A DNA stretch of 58,657 nucleotides, from positions 1 to 58,657 of the IMG/VR virus record IMGVR_UViG_3300042691_021605. One strand, 5' to 3'. The DNA is from a virus. Positions 3,087 to 14,700 of the stretch are shown here, one piece after another (the first letter of the stretch is position 1; each line of letters begins with the position of its first letter). The notes under the pieces were generated by a model. It searched no databases. It worked only from the letters and a program-made list of their open reading frames with translations, and was not told the DNA's origin. A program made the position numbers and the translations under genes.

Positions 3087-5606
3087 ATGCCTAAAGAAAA
3101 GATATATACTAATAAAAAAGAATTTGATAAAGCTAATAAAATGTATAATGATAGTTTAGCTTTATACAATCAAGGAGAAAATGCTCCTGGTAAATTATTA
3201 AAAAAAGGATTTGTTTTAGATAATAATGAATGGAATAATTTTAGTGATAAAGTTAAGATCAATGATAAGACAATAAAAGTAAAAGATAAAATTGGTTCTG
3301 ATTATTTAATTTTAGATAAAAGTGAAACTGGTAATAATAATATTAACTCCAGTATAAAACCAATTAAAGTTACACAATATACTAGAAAAGCAGAAAATAG
3401 ACCTATACTAGGAGATGATTATGGAAGTATGTTTGCATCAGGAGATGATTATTGGACAACTCCTAAATATAAAAAACCAACAACTAAACCTATCTATCAA
3501 CCAGATGTTAAACCAACTGAAACAGTTAAACCTAAAGTAATACCACAAAATCAAAGAAAACCTATTCAACCAGTTATACTTGAAGATAACCCTAAATTAA
3601 ATAAAATACAAAGTTTACCATTATCTACAATACCTGTAAATAATAAAACTAATATACAAATACCTACACAACAAGTTACTAAACCTACAACTAAAGCTGT
3701 TGATGTTAGAACTTATACTGCTGGTAAATATTTAAAAAGCCAAGGTAAATCTAGTGGTTATATTAATGAAGGAGATGGTACTGGAAGAAAAGAAGTTTAT
3801 GCTAATGGTGGATGGCTTGATTTTTTTAAACCTCCTACATCTAGAATAGAAGCTGAAACTAAATTAGATGCTTTAAATAATAGAAGTACAGCTGAAAAAT
3901 GGTTAGATGCTAGTAAGCCTATTATGAAAGAAGCTAATAACACTTCTGAAATATATCAATCTGGAGTTAATAAAGGTAAACCTACAGGTAAAGGTGCTTT
4001 AGAACCATCTTATCCTGAAATGATGTTAATGCCAGGTAGTTTACCTATTAAAGCTGCTAGTAAATTAGGTAAAGCTGCTGTATTTGCTGCTGAAGCATTA
4101 AATCCTATTGGAGGTATAAAGAATTTAAAAAGTAATCTAATTAATAAACCTACAAGTTCTGTTGTAGAAAATACTGCTAAGCAATTATCTAATTCTAATA
4201 ATATTGCTTCTGTTATAAATAGTATACCAAATTCTTGGTCTATGCAAGAACTTCCAGGATTACATTTAAAATCTACAATGACTGATGGTGCTATTTCTAA
4301 AATTATAGAACCAAAAACAGGTTTAATAAATACAGAACAGGCATTAGGTATTATAGGTAAAGAATCAGGCGGTGCTGATAAAGTAGCTTTAATTAAACAA
4401 GGATTAGGAGAAACGATTTCTAAAAAGATGGACTACAATGAATTTAGAAAAGTAGTACAAGATCAGCTTATTCCTTTAGAAAGACAGTTTGCTACAAATA
4501 AAAGTAATTATGGTATTGATAGACTTGGGTATAATTATGGTACAGTAGAAGAAAATATTGGAGGTACTTTTAATATTTATGGTAACCCTACAAAATTTAA
4601 GACAAGGCAAGAAGCTGAAGAATTTTTAAAACTTAATAGTCCTATAGAAAACCAAACTCTTATATTAGGTAACAAAAATAAATTTGGCAGAGGTTCTTCT
4701 GCTCACGGTAATCCAGATGAAACACTTGGACATATACATTTTTTAAGAGATGCTGAAACTCCTGATGTATTAACAATTACACAAATACAATCAGATGCCT
4801 TTCAAGGTACACATAGAATAATGCCTAAAAATGCTCCTGATGTTTCTAAAATAGAAAAGTCATTACAAAGGATGCAAGAACTTCAAGAAACAAATAAATC
4901 TGTTTTAAATAAAATGAAAACAGAAGGTGTAGATGAAGCAGGTTTGCCTGTACAACAATACCAAATAAAACAATTTGAAGATATAGTAAAAGCTCAAGAA
5001 CAATCTAATCTATTTAAAAAAGCAGAGATAGAAAACTTTACTCAAAAACAGTTGTTAGATAAAAACCATCAAGAAAGATATTTACAAGAACTTGTAGATT
5101 ATGCAGGTAAAAGAGGAGATGTAAATAAAGTGAGAGTGCCTACTTCTGAAACCGCTGCTAAAGTACAAGGTTATTCTCCAATTCAAGAATCAACATTAGG
5201 TCCTAAAACAAAAAAACAACTTGATGAATCATCTACATTTGAAGATTTTTTTGCACTAAAAAAAGATGAAATAGGTGACTATAAATTAAATAATGAGGAA
5301 TTTAATGCAATTAAAAAAATATACACTGATTATAAAACAGGTAATTTAGGAAAAGTATATGATCCAGCTCACACAACTATTCTTAAAAAATATTCAGAAC
5401 AACCTAAGACTATTAAAAAGTTATTTGGTGTAGAACCTAAAGTAGTAACTGATAGTAAAGGTAATACTTGGTATGAGTTTGATATACCTAAAAAATATAA
5501 AGAAGGTAAAGCAGAAATTAAAGCTTTAACAACTGTTGGAGCAGTATTAGGAGGAGCGGCTTTACAAAATAAAAAATCAAAAGGCGGTTGGTTAGATAAT
5601 CAATAA
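3087..5606 (+). CDS. Putative virion/cargo protein with EIQSD-type polyvalent domain
   Basis: The 839-aa protein has a Pro/Thr/Lys-rich low-complexity region (residues about 90-215), a GGWLD motif near residue 241 and a second GGWLD at the very C terminus. Around residues 545-575 the pattern GHIHFL...ITQIQSDAFQGTHR resembles the EIQSD domain of phage and plasmid polyvalent proteins. The later segments ELVDYAGKRG and LFGVEPKVV...WYEFDIP match the rest of that domain. Such domains occur in proteins delivered into cells with DNA, so a virion-packaged, possibly ejected effector is inferred; no enzymatic residues can be assigned. The N terminus shares the peptide MYNDSLAL with the next protein. 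It belongs to the same tightly packed + operon as its neighbours. Confidence 0.55.
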   Translation: MPKEKIYTNKKEFDKANKMYNDSLALYNQGENAPGKLLKKGFVLDNNEWNNFSDKVKINDKTIKVKDKIGSDYLILDKSETGNNNINSSIKPIKVTQYTRKAENRPILGDDYGSMFASGDDYWTTPKYKKPTTKPIYQPDVKPTETVKPKVIPQNQRKPIQPVILEDNPKLNKIQSLPLSTIPVNNKTNIQIPTQQVTKPTTKAVDVRTYTAGKYLKSQGKSSGYINEGDGTGRKEVYANGGWLDFFKPPTSRIEAETKLDALNNRSTAEKWLDASKPIMKEANNTSEIYQSGVNKGKPTGKGALEPSYPEMMLMPGSLPIKAASKLGKAAVFAAEALNPIGGIKNLKSNLINKPTSSVVENTAKQLSNSNNIASVINSIPNSWSMQELPGLHLKSTMTDGAISKIIEPKTGLINTEQALGIIGKESGGADKVALIKQGLGETISKKMDYNEFRKVVQDQLIPLERQFATNKSNYGIDRLGYNYGTVEENIGGTFNIYGNPTKFKTRQEAEEFLKLNSPIENQTLILGNKNKFGRGSSAHGNPDETLGHIHFLRDAETPDVLTITQIQSDAFQGTHRIMPKNAPDVSKIEKSLQRMQELQETNKSVLNKMKTEGVDEAGLPVQQYQIKQFEDIVKAQEQSNLFKKAEIENFTQKQLLDKNHQERYLQELVDYAGKRGDVNKVRVPTSETAAKVQGYSPIQESTLGPKTKKQLDESSTFEDFFALKKDEIGDYKLNNEEFNAIKKIYTDYKTGNLGKVYDPAHTTILKKYSEQPKTIKKLFGVEPKVVTDSKGNTWYEFDIPKKYKEGKAEIKALTTVGAVLGGAALQNKKSKGGWLDNQ

Positions 5607-7968: not shown

Positions 7969-10143
7969 ATGAGATATTTTAACGCAAGTAGTCAACCTTA
8001 TATATCAGATTTTGTTCCTCAAGATATGAACATGATATATAAAATGCAACAAGATTTAATTAAAGAAGATGAAGCTGCTAATCTAGATTTAGAAAAAAAT
8101 AAAGTAGCCTTTGATATTAAAGGAGGTTATGGAACAAGTGAAGCTGCTCAAAGATTAAGTAAACAATATAATGATGAAACTGATAAAATAGCTGCTGAAT
8201 TAGCTTCTGGAAATTTAAAAGCTAGAGATGCTTCATTTAGAGCTAAAACTTTATTACATCATTTTGCAACTAATCCAGAAGTTAATTTTGTTAAAGCTGA
8301 TTATGCAATGATGCCTAAAGTAGATCAAATGAAAAAAGAGAATCCTGGATTTATGGAAACTGGATTAGCTGAAGGTTGGAATCCTCAAACTAAAACTTGG
8401 AATCAAATGACTTCTATTAAAAATCAATCTGAATTAGATCAATATTATAATGGAATAACTCATCCTGGGTATGTAGTTGACCATAAACAATTTTATGATG
8501 ATTTAAAAGCAGATTTACTTAAAACTAAAGATGAACATAATTGGACTACTATTGACGATGGTAATGGTAATTTAATTAAAAGAGATACAGTTTATGGAAA
8601 ATCTATTAAACAACTAAATGAAGAAAAAGTTAGAAAAGCTGCTTTAAATTATTTAAATAATGATAGTGGAGCTTGGAATAAAAAATCTGTTATGTATGAT
8701 CAGTTAAAACATGAACTTGAATTTCCTGGTTTCAAATTAAGTGCTGTAGATATAGCTGAAAATATGACTAAAGCATTTTCTGGTTATTTTACAGAAGAAA
8801 ATGAATCATCAAAAGGTAGTCAAGATATTGTTATTCCTGGAAAAGGAAAAAAATCAGGACAAGGAACTGAAACTGATTCAGGAAATACTCTTAATCCATT
8901 TATTGACATGGTTAGTCCACAAACTACAGCAGTTTCAGATGAAAACTTAGATGGAGTATTTAGAAAAAATACTGATGGAAGTCATCAAATTCCAATTGAA
9001 GGTGCAATAACTAATTTTGCAAAAACATCAGGGGCTGATCCAGAAACTCAAAAAATTAATACTTTTGGTATGAGTATTAATAAAATAAAAGATAAATATG
9101 GGTATAATGACAATCCAGCAACAATTGTAAGTTCTTTAGAAAACAATGATCCTGAAAATAATAAAAATGGATATAATCCAGATACTAATCCAAAATTTGA
9201 TTATTTTATAAGAGGTTATGGATTAAATGATTATGTATATAAAAAAGAACGTAAAACAGGAATAGAAACAAATGTTGGAACAGCTAGAGAAATGATAGAT
9301 AAGGAAGTAAAAAATACTCCTGAATATGCAATACTAAAAGAACAAGCAAAAGAACAAGGAGTTGATATAACTACTGAAAATTTTAATAAAAAATATAAAG
9401 AAAGTTTAGGTAACTATTCAGAACAAATTCAAGGTGAAATTGGTAAAATATTAGAAATTGGAGGAGAAGGTAAATTTGTAGTAGATCCTGGAAATAATAA
9501 AGTAAATGTAGATGATAATGTGTTTATTTCTGGAAAAGTAGTTATGACTAAAAAAGAATGGAATGCAAGATTTGAAGCTGTAGGTAAAGATAATAGAGAG
9601 AGTAATACACCATCTCCATTTACTGATGAATGGGAAGAAATATATTTAGAACCAGGAGGTGCTGGATATGGAGTTATAAAATTCTATGCTGGGGGAGATT
9701 CTGATGAAAATGATTTATATTCTGTTGATATTAAAAAACAAATTCCAGTAGAAAGAACTATTGCTAGATCATATAATAAAGCTGCATTTGGTGAATCATT
9801 TAATTCTAAAGTAGATACTGAATTAAATAATAGTTTTAATGAATTTAAAATTAATCAAATTGATAATAAAAGAAGTAAAATATATAGTAACATCTATGAC
9901 AGTAATCCAAATAAGTTTAAAGAATCTATAGTAGCAGATGTAAAATCTTTAGATGAAAATTCTAAAGTAGTAATATCAAATTTAATTACTGAAATTGATG
10001 CTGAAAAAGATGCTATTAAAAAGAAACAAGGATATATAGAATTAAAAAAGTTACTACAAAATAAAGAAGAACTTCCAATATTTATAGAGCAACTAATTAG
10101 AAACAAAACTATGGGAAAGCCGAAAGCAGGGCAGAGAAAGTAG
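7969..10143 (+). CDS. Putative internal virion protein; donor of a -1 frameshift fusion
   Basis: The 724-aa product terminates at TAG (10141-10143), unlike most genes here, which use TAA. It is mostly charged and helical, with an N-terminal coiled-coil-like region (residues about 20-110) and no recognised catalytic motif. Its place between putative cargo proteins and the giant RNA polymerase-like gene argues for a virion protein. Near the end, codons GGA AAG (residues 716-717) form the slippery heptamer G GGA AAG followed by a strong stem. A fraction of ribosomes should therefore shift to the -1 frame and make a fusion of about 1238 aa with the next frame. The unshifted protein ends seven residues after the slip site. 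Confidence 0.6.
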   Translation: MRYFNASSQPYISDFVPQDMNMIYKMQQDLIKEDEAANLDLEKNKVAFDIKGGYGTSEAAQRLSKQYNDETDKIAAELASGNLKARDASFRAKTLLHHFATNPEVNFVKADYAMMPKVDQMKKENPGFMETGLAEGWNPQTKTWNQMTSIKNQSELDQYYNGITHPGYVVDHKQFYDDLKADLLKTKDEHNWTTIDDGNGNLIKRDTVYGKSIKQLNEEKVRKAALNYLNNDSGAWNKKSVMYDQLKHELEFPGFKLSAVDIAENMTKAFSGYFTEENESSKGSQDIVIPGKGKKSGQGTETDSGNTLNPFIDMVSPQTTAVSDENLDGVFRKNTDGSHQIPIEGAITNFAKTSGADPETQKINTFGMSINKIKDKYGYNDNPATIVSSLENNDPENNKNGYNPDTNPKFDYFIRGYGLNDYVYKKERKTGIETNVGTAREMIDKEVKNTPEYAILKEQAKEQGVDITTENFNKKYKESLGNYSEQIQGEIGKILEIGGEGKFVVDPGNNKVNVDDNVFISGKVVMTKKEWNARFEAVGKDNRESNTPSPFTDEWEEIYLEPGGAGYGVIKFYAGGDSDENDLYSVDIKKQIPVERTIARSYNKAAFGESFNSKVDTELNNSFNEFKINQIDNKRSKIYSNIYDSNPNKFKESIVADVKSLDENSKVVISNLITEIDAEKDAIKKKQGYIELKKLLQNKEELPIFIEQLIRNKTMGKPKAGQRK

Positions 10144-10157
10144 TTAATCCCCCTGCT
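10113..10157 (+). promoter_or_regulatory. Programmed -1 ribosomal frameshift element
   Basis: The slippery heptamer GGGAAAG (10113-10119) is in the correct phase (G GGA AAG) and is identical to that of the lambda G/GT tail assembly genes. A 5-nt spacer CCGAA follows. Then AGCAGGG (10125-10131) pairs perfectly with CCCTGCT (10151-10157) across a 19-nt loop that contains the zero-frame TAG. The stem is strikingly GC-rich in an AT-rich genome. The -1 frame is open from 10101 to 11681 but has no ATG or GTG near its beginning. All three elements of a classical frameshift site are thus seen directly; frameshifting itself is inferred. Confidence 0.85.
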
Positions 10158-11684
10158 AAAGTATCAACTACAACTACAACTACAAGTAATAATAAATTTG
10201 AACCTATACCAAGTAGATTTATTGTTTCACCAACAGCAGAATTTAAAGAAGCATTACCTAATGTTATTAAAGCTTTAAATGAGTTGCCAGAAACAATTAA
10301 TCCAATTATAACATCTTCAAGAAGGAGTGAAAGTAATCCAGCTAAAAGTAGATTTAGTAAACCTGGATATAATCCTCATGTTGAAGGTAAGTCATTAGAT
10401 TTAGCTGATGATGAAAAAACATTAAAACTTTGGAATTGGATTGATACATTAGAAGGACAAAAATGGAAAAAAGATAATAATGTAACAATATTAAAAGAAG
10501 ATGATCATTATCATGTTCAATTTAATAATACACCAGCAAAACAATCTATAAAAACAGAAACTAAACCAGCACCTATTATCCCTGTTGTTAAACAAGAACC
10601 TCCAAAAACAACAAAAGAAATAGTTAAAAGTATAAATGTTCCTAAAAAAGCTGAAATAAAAATTACTAAAAGCACAGAAGAAAATACTACAGATAAAGTA
10701 GTTGATTATGTTAAAAAAGCTCCTTGGACAGAACCTTCTAAAATAGTTGATTATTTTACAACTATATATGATACTAAACAAAGAAGTCAAGGTGAAAATT
10801 TAAAAGAAGAACCTAAAATTAAAACTCCAGTTGTAAATATAACTAATAAAGATAAAGTAAAATTAGGAACTAGTTATAAAGATTCTAATGGTTTAGTATA
10901 TGGTAAAAGTGTTGTTGATATGTCAAATGGAATAAATGTTACTTATCAACCTAGAAATGAAAAATCTAAAAATAGAACTGATATAAATAATGCAATTATG
11001 ATTTCTGATTATTTATATGATATGGATTTTACAGATAATACAAATCATGAACATGCTCAAAATAATTTAAATAAATTAAAATCAGGTAAAACAACTCAAA
11101 AATTTGTTACAGTAAGAGAACCTTCTAAAACTAAAGGAGAATTTATAGTTAAAGTTAAAAAAGTATCTGATTTAACAGATAAAGACTTTAAAGATAATAA
11201 TATATATAGACAGTCTTATGCTAAATTAAGTGATTTAGATATTTCAAAAGATGGTAAAAAAATTAAATTAACTAATTATGCTAAAAAATTAAAAGCAGCT
11301 TTATTTGTTAATCAAGGATTACCTTTCTTTGGAGAAGGAGATAACAATTTAAGATTACCTGGTGGAAAAGGTAATTATGGAAAATATCAAAACTTATCAG
11401 AATTAAAACAGTTTGGACCTTATTTAGGGGGAACTGTAACTATTATATCAGATGATGGTAAAATAGTTAAAAAAATTACTGGAGGAGTTGGAGATATTGT
11501 AGAAGAAGCTCAAAGAATTAAAAAGCAAACAGGAGGTAAAGAAGTATATTTTTTACAATCTGATGCTGGTAGTATGAATGTTAAAGCATTTGCTAAAAAT
11601 AATAAAATAAGTAAAAGTCAATTAGGAATACTTAGAAATTTAGAACCTCAAGCTGGGGCAGCTGAAATTCTATTAAATAAATAA
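10119..11684 (+). CDS. -1 frame extension with M15-type peptidase domain (frameshift product)
   Basis: This frame adds 521 codons to the 724-aa protein by the -1 shift at 10119. The only internal start candidate, TTG at 10284, would cut into the domain, because coding-like sequence (PSRFIVSPTAEFKEALP) lies before it. The domain has TSSRRS, then H804-x2-G-x3-D811 and H847-Y-H849 (fusion numbering), the Zn-ligand layout of M15/VanY-type D,D- or L,D-peptidases. A virion-associated peptidoglycan hydrolase is therefore inferred. A Thr-rich linker (six Thr) joins it to the carrier. The C-terminal 250 residues (motifs LPGGKGNYGKY, YFLQSDAGSMN) are unassigned. If no frameshift occurs, a 466-aa protein from TTG would be the alternative. 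Confidence 0.7.
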   Translation, partial: AESRAEKVVNPPAKVSTTTTTTSNNKFEPIPSRFIVSPTAEFKEALPNVIKALNELPETINPIITSSRRSESNPAKSRFSKPGYNPHVEGKSLDLADDEKTLKLWNWIDTLEGQKWKKDNNVTILKEDDHYHVQFNNTPAKQSIKTETKPAPIIPVVKQEPPKTTKEIVKSINVPKKAEIKITKSTEENTTDKVVDYVKKAPWTEPSKIVDYFTTIYDTKQRSQGENLKEEPKIKTPVVNITNKDKVKLGTSYKDSNGLVYGKSVVDMSNGINVTYQPRNEKSKNRTDINNAIMISDYLYDMDFTDNTNHEHAQNNLNKLKSGKTTQKFVTVREPSKTKGEFIVKVKKVSDLTDKDFKDNNIYRQSYAKLSDLDISKDGKKIKLTNYAKKLKAALFVNQGLPFFGEGDNNLRLPGGKGNYGKYQNLSELKQFGPYLGGTVTIISDDGKIVKKITGGVGDIVEEAQRIKKQTGGKEVYFLQSDAGSMNVKAFAKNNKISKSQLGILRNLEPQAGAAEILLNK

Positions 11685-11701: not shown

Positions 11702-14700
11702 ATGCCTGATAATAAATTAGATTTTTTATTAAATTATAAAAAACCAATTAGTCAATCAAATTCTAATATTGATTTATTAATAAATAGAAATCAATCTCAA
11801 CAAAAAGTTAATCAAGCTGTTGATGAATTACCTGTATTTCTTAATAATAGAGAAGATCTAACATTAGATCCAAATAAATATGAAACTAGATTTCAAACAG
11901 AATTTACAGATGCTGTTAATTCTTTTAGAAGAGGTATAGATCAAACACAAATATCAAATTATCAAGGTAAATTAGATGCTCATCAAGAAGTTATTGATGA
12001 TAATGTAGATAAAAAAAATAAATTAATTGATTTACATAAACAAGGTAAAATAAATAGTTTAATACTAGGAGCAGAACTTCAAAAAATTGAACAAGAAAAT
12101 AATAAAGCTTTTACTGAAATAAGTAAATATCAATCTGATATTGAAGATAATAAATTAGAAATGCAGGATGAATATGTTTCTAAAATGTATCAGATGAAAG
12201 AAGCTCTTGTTCAAGCTAAAGGTGGAGATGCAGGTTTATGGGAATCTATTAAATATACAATGCCTTCTACTGCTGGTAGTTCAGCTAGTTTAATGGGACA
12301 ACAAATAGCAGCTACTTGGGGTACAGGATTAATTAAAAAAATTATTACATCAGCTGGAGCTGGAGCTATTGGGGGTCCATTAGGAGAAGCAATTGCTGTT
12401 GGTGGAACTATATTAACAACTGCTGCTTTAATAGGTAATAGTAGATACCAAGAAACAATGGCTGAAATTGGAGGTCAATTAGAACAAAACCAACAAAAAT
12501 TATTAGAAAACTGGCAAGAACAAAATCCAGGATTAGAACCTGATGAAGAAGTTTTAAGACAAATTAGAATGGCGGCTAGAAAAGGTAAGGATGAAATGTT
12601 CAAAGAACAAATGATGCTTGGTTTTTGGGATGGTGCTCAAGCTTTATTAGCTCCAGGTTCTAAAGTTTTAGGAGCTTTTAAAACTGGTAGAAAATTAGAA
12701 AAAGCTGTTGAAAAAATTACTGATTATAACAAATATACAAGAGCTGGTAGTACATTAGGTAAATTCTATATAGGACAAAAATCAGAAGGTTTTGAAGAAG
12801 GTTTTCAATATGCTACTAGTAAAAGACAAGAAGATGCTGCTTTAGGATTAGGTTTATATGAGAATAAAGATTTCATGACTAATTTATTAACAGATAGTTA
12901 TGATACAGTTAGTTCTATGGATTTTGGACCATTTAAAGGAGATGGTAGATATGCTGATGATAAAGAATTTCAATTTTCTGTTAAATCTGGTGAGTTATTA
13001 TCAATGTTACCAGGAGCAGTTGCTACTGCTAAAAGTATGTATGATGATATAAGTACTTATAGAAAAACTAATAAAGAACTTCAGCAATCAGGAATAGCTA
13101 ATCCAGAAGATAAGTTTTTTAAATTAAAAGATCAAATATATGTTAGACATTTTGATAATAATACTGTTTCTTATCTATTAGAAGGAGTTAGAAATTTAGG
13201 TAATCAAAAAAATGAAAAAGGTATTCCTTATTTAAATGAAACTGAAGTACAAGCTGAAACTAAAAATATTCAAGAAGCTTTTGATAAGTATTTAGAAGTA
13301 TCAAAACATATAGAAGATATTATACCAGAAGGTAGATTTAATATTAAATATTCACCAGAACAAGTTGTAAAAATAGCAGCATTAAAATCAGAGTTATTTC
13401 ATAGTTCTATGAATTTAACAAGATATGCTCATAAGTTTCCAACTATAGAAACTGTAAGTAATATTAATAACCTTATAAAACATAATGAAAATTTAATTAA
13501 AGAAATACAAAGTACTTTAAATTCAGATTATACTTTAAGAAATGTTTATCATTTAAATGATAGATTATCTTTAGCTCAAAATAAGTTAACAGAATTAAAT
13601 GATTTAAAAAAACAATTTTTAGAAGGTTCTAATTTAGAAGAAAAAGATATTCCTGAAATTAATTCAGTTGAAGAATCTAATAAAAATAAAGAATATGTAA
13701 TTAATGATTTAAATTTATCTGAAGAGAAAAAAAAATATGAAGAATTATTAAAAGTTAAAGATAATGAAACATTAGATATATGGTTTGATAATTTTATTAA
13801 AAAACAAAAAACTAAAAAGAAAGAAATAACTAAACAAGAATCTAAAATTAAATTAGCTCAAGAAACTGATGTTAATTTATTTGCTCAAGATGTTTTTAAT
13901 AAAGTTAAAGATCCAGCAGCTGAAGAAAATATTGAATTTTATAATGCTAATAAAGAAGCTATTGATAAACAAATAGCAATTTTACAAGCAGCAAAAGATA
14001 AAAAAGCAGTTAAAGATGTATTTGGAGATCCTATTGATGAAGAAGAACCAGAAGATTTTGATAACATAGATTATAATAAAGTAGCTAAAGTTAAATCTGA
14101 TGAAAAAGAAGGTAAGAAAGCTGAAACAGTTAATAAAACTGAATTAGGTTGGGATGGAGATATATTTATTATTCAAGGAGAAAAATATGGTATTGTAGAT
14201 TTAAATGGTGATGTTTATACTTTAAAAAATATTAAGACTAATTTTGAAATCTATGTTAAAGCTAAAGATTTAAATTATTTTAAAGGAATAGCTCAATATC
14301 CTTCACAAGAAAGATTATTTAGATTTACTGAAAACTCTGATAATATAGAAGATTATGAATTAGCTGCTATAACTAAAAGAAATAATCCTGAATTATATAA
14401 TGAATTATTAGATTTACAAGAAAATGAATTAAATAAAGATGGATTAAATGCTAGACAAACTGATGAAGAAGATTCTATTTACTTTGTTTTAGTTGATAAA
14501 AATCATAATCCTGTATTAGTAGATGGTGTTAAGTTATTTTCTTATATGACTAGACCTGAAAGATATACTAAGAAAGAATTAAATGTTACTGAAGAAGATG
14601 TTGAAAAACTAAAAGAAAATAGAGAATTAATTTTAAATAGTAATGATATATTATTTTTTAATGTTATAGATAAATCTGATGGTACTTTAGGATTTGAAAG

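Follow-up and report, generated by a model that had tools for sequence, protein, structure and literature searches.

The gene for a putative cargo protein of a crAss-like phage very probably ends in a site of -1 programmed ribosomal frameshifting, at positions 10113-10119 of the window, by which we mean the whole stretch analysed, a 58.7-kb IMG/VR virus record of 58,657 nucleotides. We consider it likely that the result is a frameshift-made fusion with a hydrolase-type extension, encoded in the cargo/ejection block of the phage. In the proposed mechanism, most ribosomes would end at the TAG codon at 10141-10143 and make a 724-aa protein, and a minority would slip by -1 on G GGA AAG, aided by the stem at 10125-10157, and make a fusion of ~1,238 aa. 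The C-terminal extension borne by this fusion would start with a domain that is probably a peptidoglycan-cutting module, lysozyme-like in relatives and with an M15-like motif in the window. Slippage, its rate, the place of the products in the virion and the activity of the enzyme are what we infer from the DNA; the strongest evidence for the site is that its layout is kept in three relatives.

The site and its gene

The window opens inside a muzzle gene whose crAss_MUZ domains (PF25731, 4.1e-73; PF25729, 7.9e-17; Pfam) place the phage among the Crassvirales, in agreement with an earlier sequence-only reading of this DNA. The + strand ORFs that follow the muzzle gene encode 839, 781 and 724 aa, and then, past the -1 frame, 4717 and 1878 aa. 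The 4717-aa protein has a Dda-like helicase segment and a DprA-like segment, comparable to those of the giant cargo-block proteins of other crassviruses. The 724-aa ORF (7969-10143, + strand, stop TAG) lies between the muzzle block and this giant gene, and its product is probably a virion cargo/ejection-block protein, a role that we deduce from its position. Indeed, the label rests on gene order because no homologue of the protein was detected in the described crassviruses: profile comparison of its family stayed short of significance, with E 0.48 for crAss001 gp46 and E 0.03 for the Suoliviridae counterpart, the latter over 74 N-terminal columns only. Relatives were found by muzzle-based searches of IMG/VR (the C-terminal parts of their muzzle proteins are ~76-80% identical to that of the window), and the matching genes of four of them are homologous to the N-terminal part of the 724-aa protein. 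None was found by searching IMG/VR directly with the 724-aa protein, INPHARED phages with either half (the lysozyme half returned unrelated hydrolases only), or genome contigs with the C-terminal domain or the muzzle.

The heptamer G GGA AAG (10113-10119, + strand) occupies codons 716-717 of the 724-aa frame, in phase and 28 nt upstream of the stop, and GGGAAAG occurs only this once in the whole window. It is followed by a 5-nt spacer (10120-10124, + strand) and by a perfect 7-bp stem with five G-C pairs, formed by AGCAGGG (10125-10131, + strand) and CCCTGCT (10151-10157, + strand), whose 19-nt loop contains the 0-frame TAG (10141-10143, + strand). The -1 frame (10101-11684, + strand) is open from 10101 to 11681, where a TAA follows, and runs for 513 codons beyond the TAG. 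It has no GTG; its first TTG is at 10284, ~140 nt past the stop, and its first ATG 779 nt past it. The sequence-only reading had described just this: an in-phase heptamer, a 5-nt spacer and a perfect, GC-rich 7-bp stem that join the 724-aa frame to an open -1 frame with no ATG or GTG start, and the coordinates bear it out. The predicted fusion consists of residues 1-717 followed by 521 aa, and its junction would be spanned by the peptide NKTMGKAESR.

Such a site is rare in its own genome. Among the + strand genes of the window, GGGAAAG or AAAAAAG is found in phase at 3 of 10,179 codon sites, and a heptamer of any X XXY YYZ form, mainly TTTAAAN, at 1.5% of codon positions. A stem with at least seven Watson-Crick pairs, at least four of them G-C, at a spacing of 3-9 nt occurs at none of 9,794 background positions, and the 45 nt downstream of the heptamer fold more stably than 99.7% of background stretches. 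The GC stem is conspicuous because the genome is AT-rich; compared with local shuffles of the same 61 nt it is unremarkable (z -1.3, a weak value), and the case therefore rests on the relatives.

Relatives and the downstream frame

In three relatives (L002, IMGVR_UViG_3300042509_001112; L024, 3300028394_000002; L025, 3300008259_000098), a -1 frame comes after the homologous gene. The gene ends in GGA AAA AAG TAG in all three, so that the heptamer A AAA AAG directly abuts the stop; like that of the window, it is of the form X XXY YYZ, in the 0-frame phase and within the overlap of the two frames. After 4-6 nt comes a stem of 9-11 bp (CTYCAGTAG...CTRCTGGAG) that differs from the window stem. Placed as they are, these stems and the 7-bp stem of the window at 5 nt are candidate stimulatory structures, which are sought 5-9 nt downstream of a slippery heptamer. 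Nine stem pairs compared in the three relatives are paired in 27 of 27 cells, as against 11-48% when the partner is slid along, and the two varying positions keep pairing by one-sided change. With three close sequences and no compensatory change, this pairing is consistency rather than proof of covariation. In L002, a CTACTGG upstream of the heptamer (L002:5539-5566) can pair with the CCAGTAG part of the 5' arm, a possible competing hairpin that is weaker in L024.

The 0-frame stop at the site is TAG in four of four genomes, yet TAG ends only 3 of the 45 genes counted in the window. Readthrough of this codon was considered and rejected, as the 0 frame closes after 3 codons in the relatives and after 44 in the window and TAG serves as a stop; no tRNA gene was found in the window. 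A +1 shift was rejected as well, the +1 frame closing within 1-6 codons. In L002, L024 and L025, both the 0 and the +1 frame close within 3-6 codons of the TAG and the -1 frame runs for 513-543 codons. Predicted products are alike in the four genomes, ~680-724 aa for the short form and ~1,200-1,240 aa for the fused one (computed lengths 1,238, 1,201, 1,220 and 1,209 aa), and the junction peptide predicted for L025 is TTGKKVEPPVETK.

Could the frame break be a sequencing or assembly error, or the decay of a pseudogene? Each genome is a single metagenome assembly, which leaves room for such an explanation. However, four separate assemblies break at the same place of the gene, always towards -1, and those with A AAA AAG differ by 5-20% in sequence around the site. 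Moreover, changes in the -1 frame fall mostly at third positions, with dN/dS of 0.16 between L024 and L025 and of 0.29-0.34 in the pairs with L002; by this measure the -1 frames of the relatives are under purifying selection. We regard error or decay as extremely improbable.

Past the TAG, a non-AUG or internal start could also open a gene of its own, translated by initiation or reinitiation; candidates for such a start are TTG 10284 of the window and, in L002, an ATG that lies 89 nt beyond the stop. But the ATG of L002 lies inside the lysozyme-like domain and the TTG of the window inside the first domain of the extension, while 650 nt pass in L024 and L025 without an ATG, and 473-665 nt without a GTG or TTG, yet their lysozyme-like domain begins within ~16 codons of the heptamer. 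A separate gene would, besides, leave the in-phase heptamers and the stems unexplained, and we judge it very unlikely. The run of six A in the relatives brings to mind transcriptional rather than ribosomal slippage as the maker of the fusion. Six A are short for transcriptional slippage. The GGGAAAG of the window has three A only, and a codon-phased heptamer with spacer and stem is typical of the ribosomal process, all of which makes the transcriptional one very improbable. Programmed ribosomal frameshifting, the preferred reading, gains from relatives whose -1 layout is the same although they use a different canonical heptamer and stem. In the three relatives we looked for a pair of separate genes, each with an evident start and with neither heptamer nor stem, and did not find such a pair. 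The sequence-only reading had proposed conservation of GGGAAAG and of the stem as a check; it is the layout that is conserved, the heptamer being A AAA AAG in the relatives and the stem a different one.

We scanned 21 crAss-like loci, namely the window, six members of its clade and fourteen further ones (crAss001, phi14:2, DAC15, cr118, cr50, cr85, cr53, cr126, cr125, cr128, cr115, cr60, bajarodcaudo virus 1 and MT835473), for -1 extensions of at least 60 aa with no ATG within 60 nt. Only the window, L002, L024 and L025 combine such an extension with a heptamer in the overlap, and no heptamer-bearing site of the kind was found in the fourteen others. In the annotated references that span the region, the gene before the giant cargo gene adjoins it, at a distance of roughly -1 to 20 nt. 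Likewise, in L013 (3300011113_000265; L013:15679-17614) the upstream gene encodes 638 aa, the extension is absent, and 18 nt separate the stop from the giant cargo gene; the extension is therefore optional, or dispensable. Only four genomes, then, carry the site. The heptamer and stem of the window have no counterpart in any relative, and the three copies of A AAA AAG, clearly of one recent extension lineage, add barely more than a single independent case to that of the window. Two -1 open frames of another sort, with no nearby ATG and no heptamer, were seen in L054 (cr60_1; 3689-5452 and 11936-12436) and are possibly assembly frameshifts, and a small, HNH-like-looking ORF is inserted between the two genes after the muzzle of the relative L021 (L021:14460-15056).

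Domains and apparent exchange of the extension

The extension of the window starts with a variable domain (10188-10535, + strand) in which the motif H-V-E-G-K-S-L-D ... D-D-H-Y-H (H-x2-G..D..HxH) can be read by eye, with H at 10377, D at 10398 and HYH at 10506-10514. We take this to resemble the zinc-binding motif of M15/LAS peptidases; the resemblance is one of motif, since no M15/LAS profile or fold match was found for the domain in Pfam, NCBIfam or the PDB. AlphaFold models are poor (pLDDT 50 for the first domain and 33 for the C-terminal one), and the PDB fold search of the first domain came back empty. WD40 matches obtained for it with phmmer were discarded as a short match multiplied by repeats. 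The relatives lack the M15-like stretch and carry, in its place, a lysozyme-like domain (KARPxGVTRAExNNNPGNLxGWD... in L002, L024 and L025). This domain has no match in Pfam and does match hydrolase-family profiles in PHROG, where that of L025 hits phrog_873 (endolysin, 3.2e-14) and phrog_2276 (tape measure, 8e-13). The C-terminal domain (10644-11681, + strand, ~345 aa) belongs to no recognised family; it is 87% identical to that of L002 and 28-29% identical to those of L024 and L025, and an IMG/VR search with the domain of these two returned L024 and L025 only.

What the extension would do is a question apart from how it is made. We lean, if slightly, towards a role in dosage, in which a few enzyme-bearing copies would stand beside many plain copies of a protein packed in or ejected from the virion, and would open the wall locally during DNA entry. 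The frameshift could be real and the extension serve another purpose, such as lysis timing or host binding, since the large C-terminal domain, with no recognised family, could be the functional end. Against this, three of the four extensions open with a lysozyme-like domain and the fourth with a peptidase-like motif, and the gene stands where other crassviruses have their virion cargo genes; another purpose thus seems possible and rather unlikely.

Comparison of the genomes points to exchange. The upstream proteins of L024 and L025 are 31% identical over their first ~290 residues and their extensions 81% identical. At the DNA level the two genomes are ~30% identical up to a point ~10-15 nt before the heptamer, after which identity is 80% or more, with 100% across the heptamer; the slippery site and the stem thus seem to be carried along with the extension. 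Between the window and L002, the last ~345 residues are 87% identical while the first domain of the extension, the heptamer and the stem all differ, as would be expected if the front of the cassette had been exchanged as a whole, together with its signal. It seems, then, that signal and extension pass as one cassette from one divergent upstream protein to another. A broader proposal, for and against which we find the case evenly balanced, is that a self-contained cassette of heptamer, stem, wall-cutting domain and C-terminal domain recombines between divergent crAss-like phages and, lodged at the 3' end of a cargo/ejection gene, would turn a small, fixed fraction of the protein into an enzyme-bearing form, with different hydrolase domains coming with different slippery sites.

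Two further observations concern the neighbourhood. Next to the frameshift cassette, the first ~450 residues of the giant cargo protein share only 16-25% identity in phages whose muzzle proteins share ~75%, and this segment (window 11702-13100; L002:7149-8520; L013:17614-19020) is hypervariable or exchanged. Also, the gene after the muzzle in L014 (L014:10060-13005) and L022 (L022:7053-9245) starts with extra domains that look, by eye, of NlpC/P60 and lysozyme type; muralytic domains may occupy different cargo genes in different members of the clade.

Comparison with known systems

Programmed frameshifting in tailed phages is known chiefly from tail-assembly chaperones and a few capsid genes. 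Our searches of the open-access literature returned no account of such frameshifting for crAss-like phages or for a virion hydrolase; where frameshifts are mentioned for crAss-like phages, they are mutations or assembly artefacts. The sequence-only reading, which knew of no earlier description, agrees with this. Our results suggest phage -1 frameshifting in a new place. If this is true, frameshifting in the crAss-like cargo block would dose a wall-degrading domain in the particle, and the data suggest that a recoding signal may travel with the domain that it serves. Gene callers split or lose such extensions (in the window there is no standard start within 140 nt of the stop), and virion hydrolases of this kind would therefore be missed or mis-called.

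The heptamer G GGA AAG is that of lambda G/GT, and the two cases would have in common that ribosomes slip by -1 close to the 3' end of a structural-block gene and so make a short protein often and an extended one rarely. The sequence-only reading saw here exactly the design of lambda; this stands for the heptamer and not for the gene and its products, which are not tail-assembly chaperones. G/GT sites lie just upstream of the tape-measure gene of long-tailed phages. The neighbours of the gene studied here are the muzzle block on one side and, on the other, a giant cargo gene with helicase- and DprA-like segments, and this different context sets it outside the G/GT family. Unlike lambda G/GT, it also has an extension of ~520 aa with an enzyme-like domain and is followed by a strong GC stem. 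Heptamers that differ between relatives are common to both, as phiCbK-like phages swap those of their chaperones (AAAAAAC in phiCbK, GGGAAAC in Colossus; PMC3556154).

A likeness in outcome is offered by gene 10A/10B of T7 and K1F, where a -1 shift at the 3' end gives a minority of the capsid subunits an extra domain, and this minor capsid protein becomes part of the particle (PMC13370021). The minority form and the manner of its making are alike; the T7/K1F protein is a capsid protein with no enzyme, and ours a cargo-block protein. Within the crassviruses, the cargo genes gp45 and gp46 of crAss001 hold the same position, the order being muzzle, cargo genes and then a giant RNA-polymerase-related or helicase cargo gene, and gp46 is a virion component with an expected part in forming the ejection channel (PMC10172136). 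By gene order, a correspondence of position only, the 724-aa protein is the counterpart of gp46. Both crAss001 genes are single frames with no extension, and no sequence homology of either to the 724-aa protein was detected. In virion-associated peptidoglycan hydrolases of the kind fused to tape-measure or ejection proteins, the muralytic domain is in frame and so present in every copy. The crAss-like case would share with them a muralytic domain on a protein that enters with the DNA, and would differ in that the domain is added only after a frameshift.
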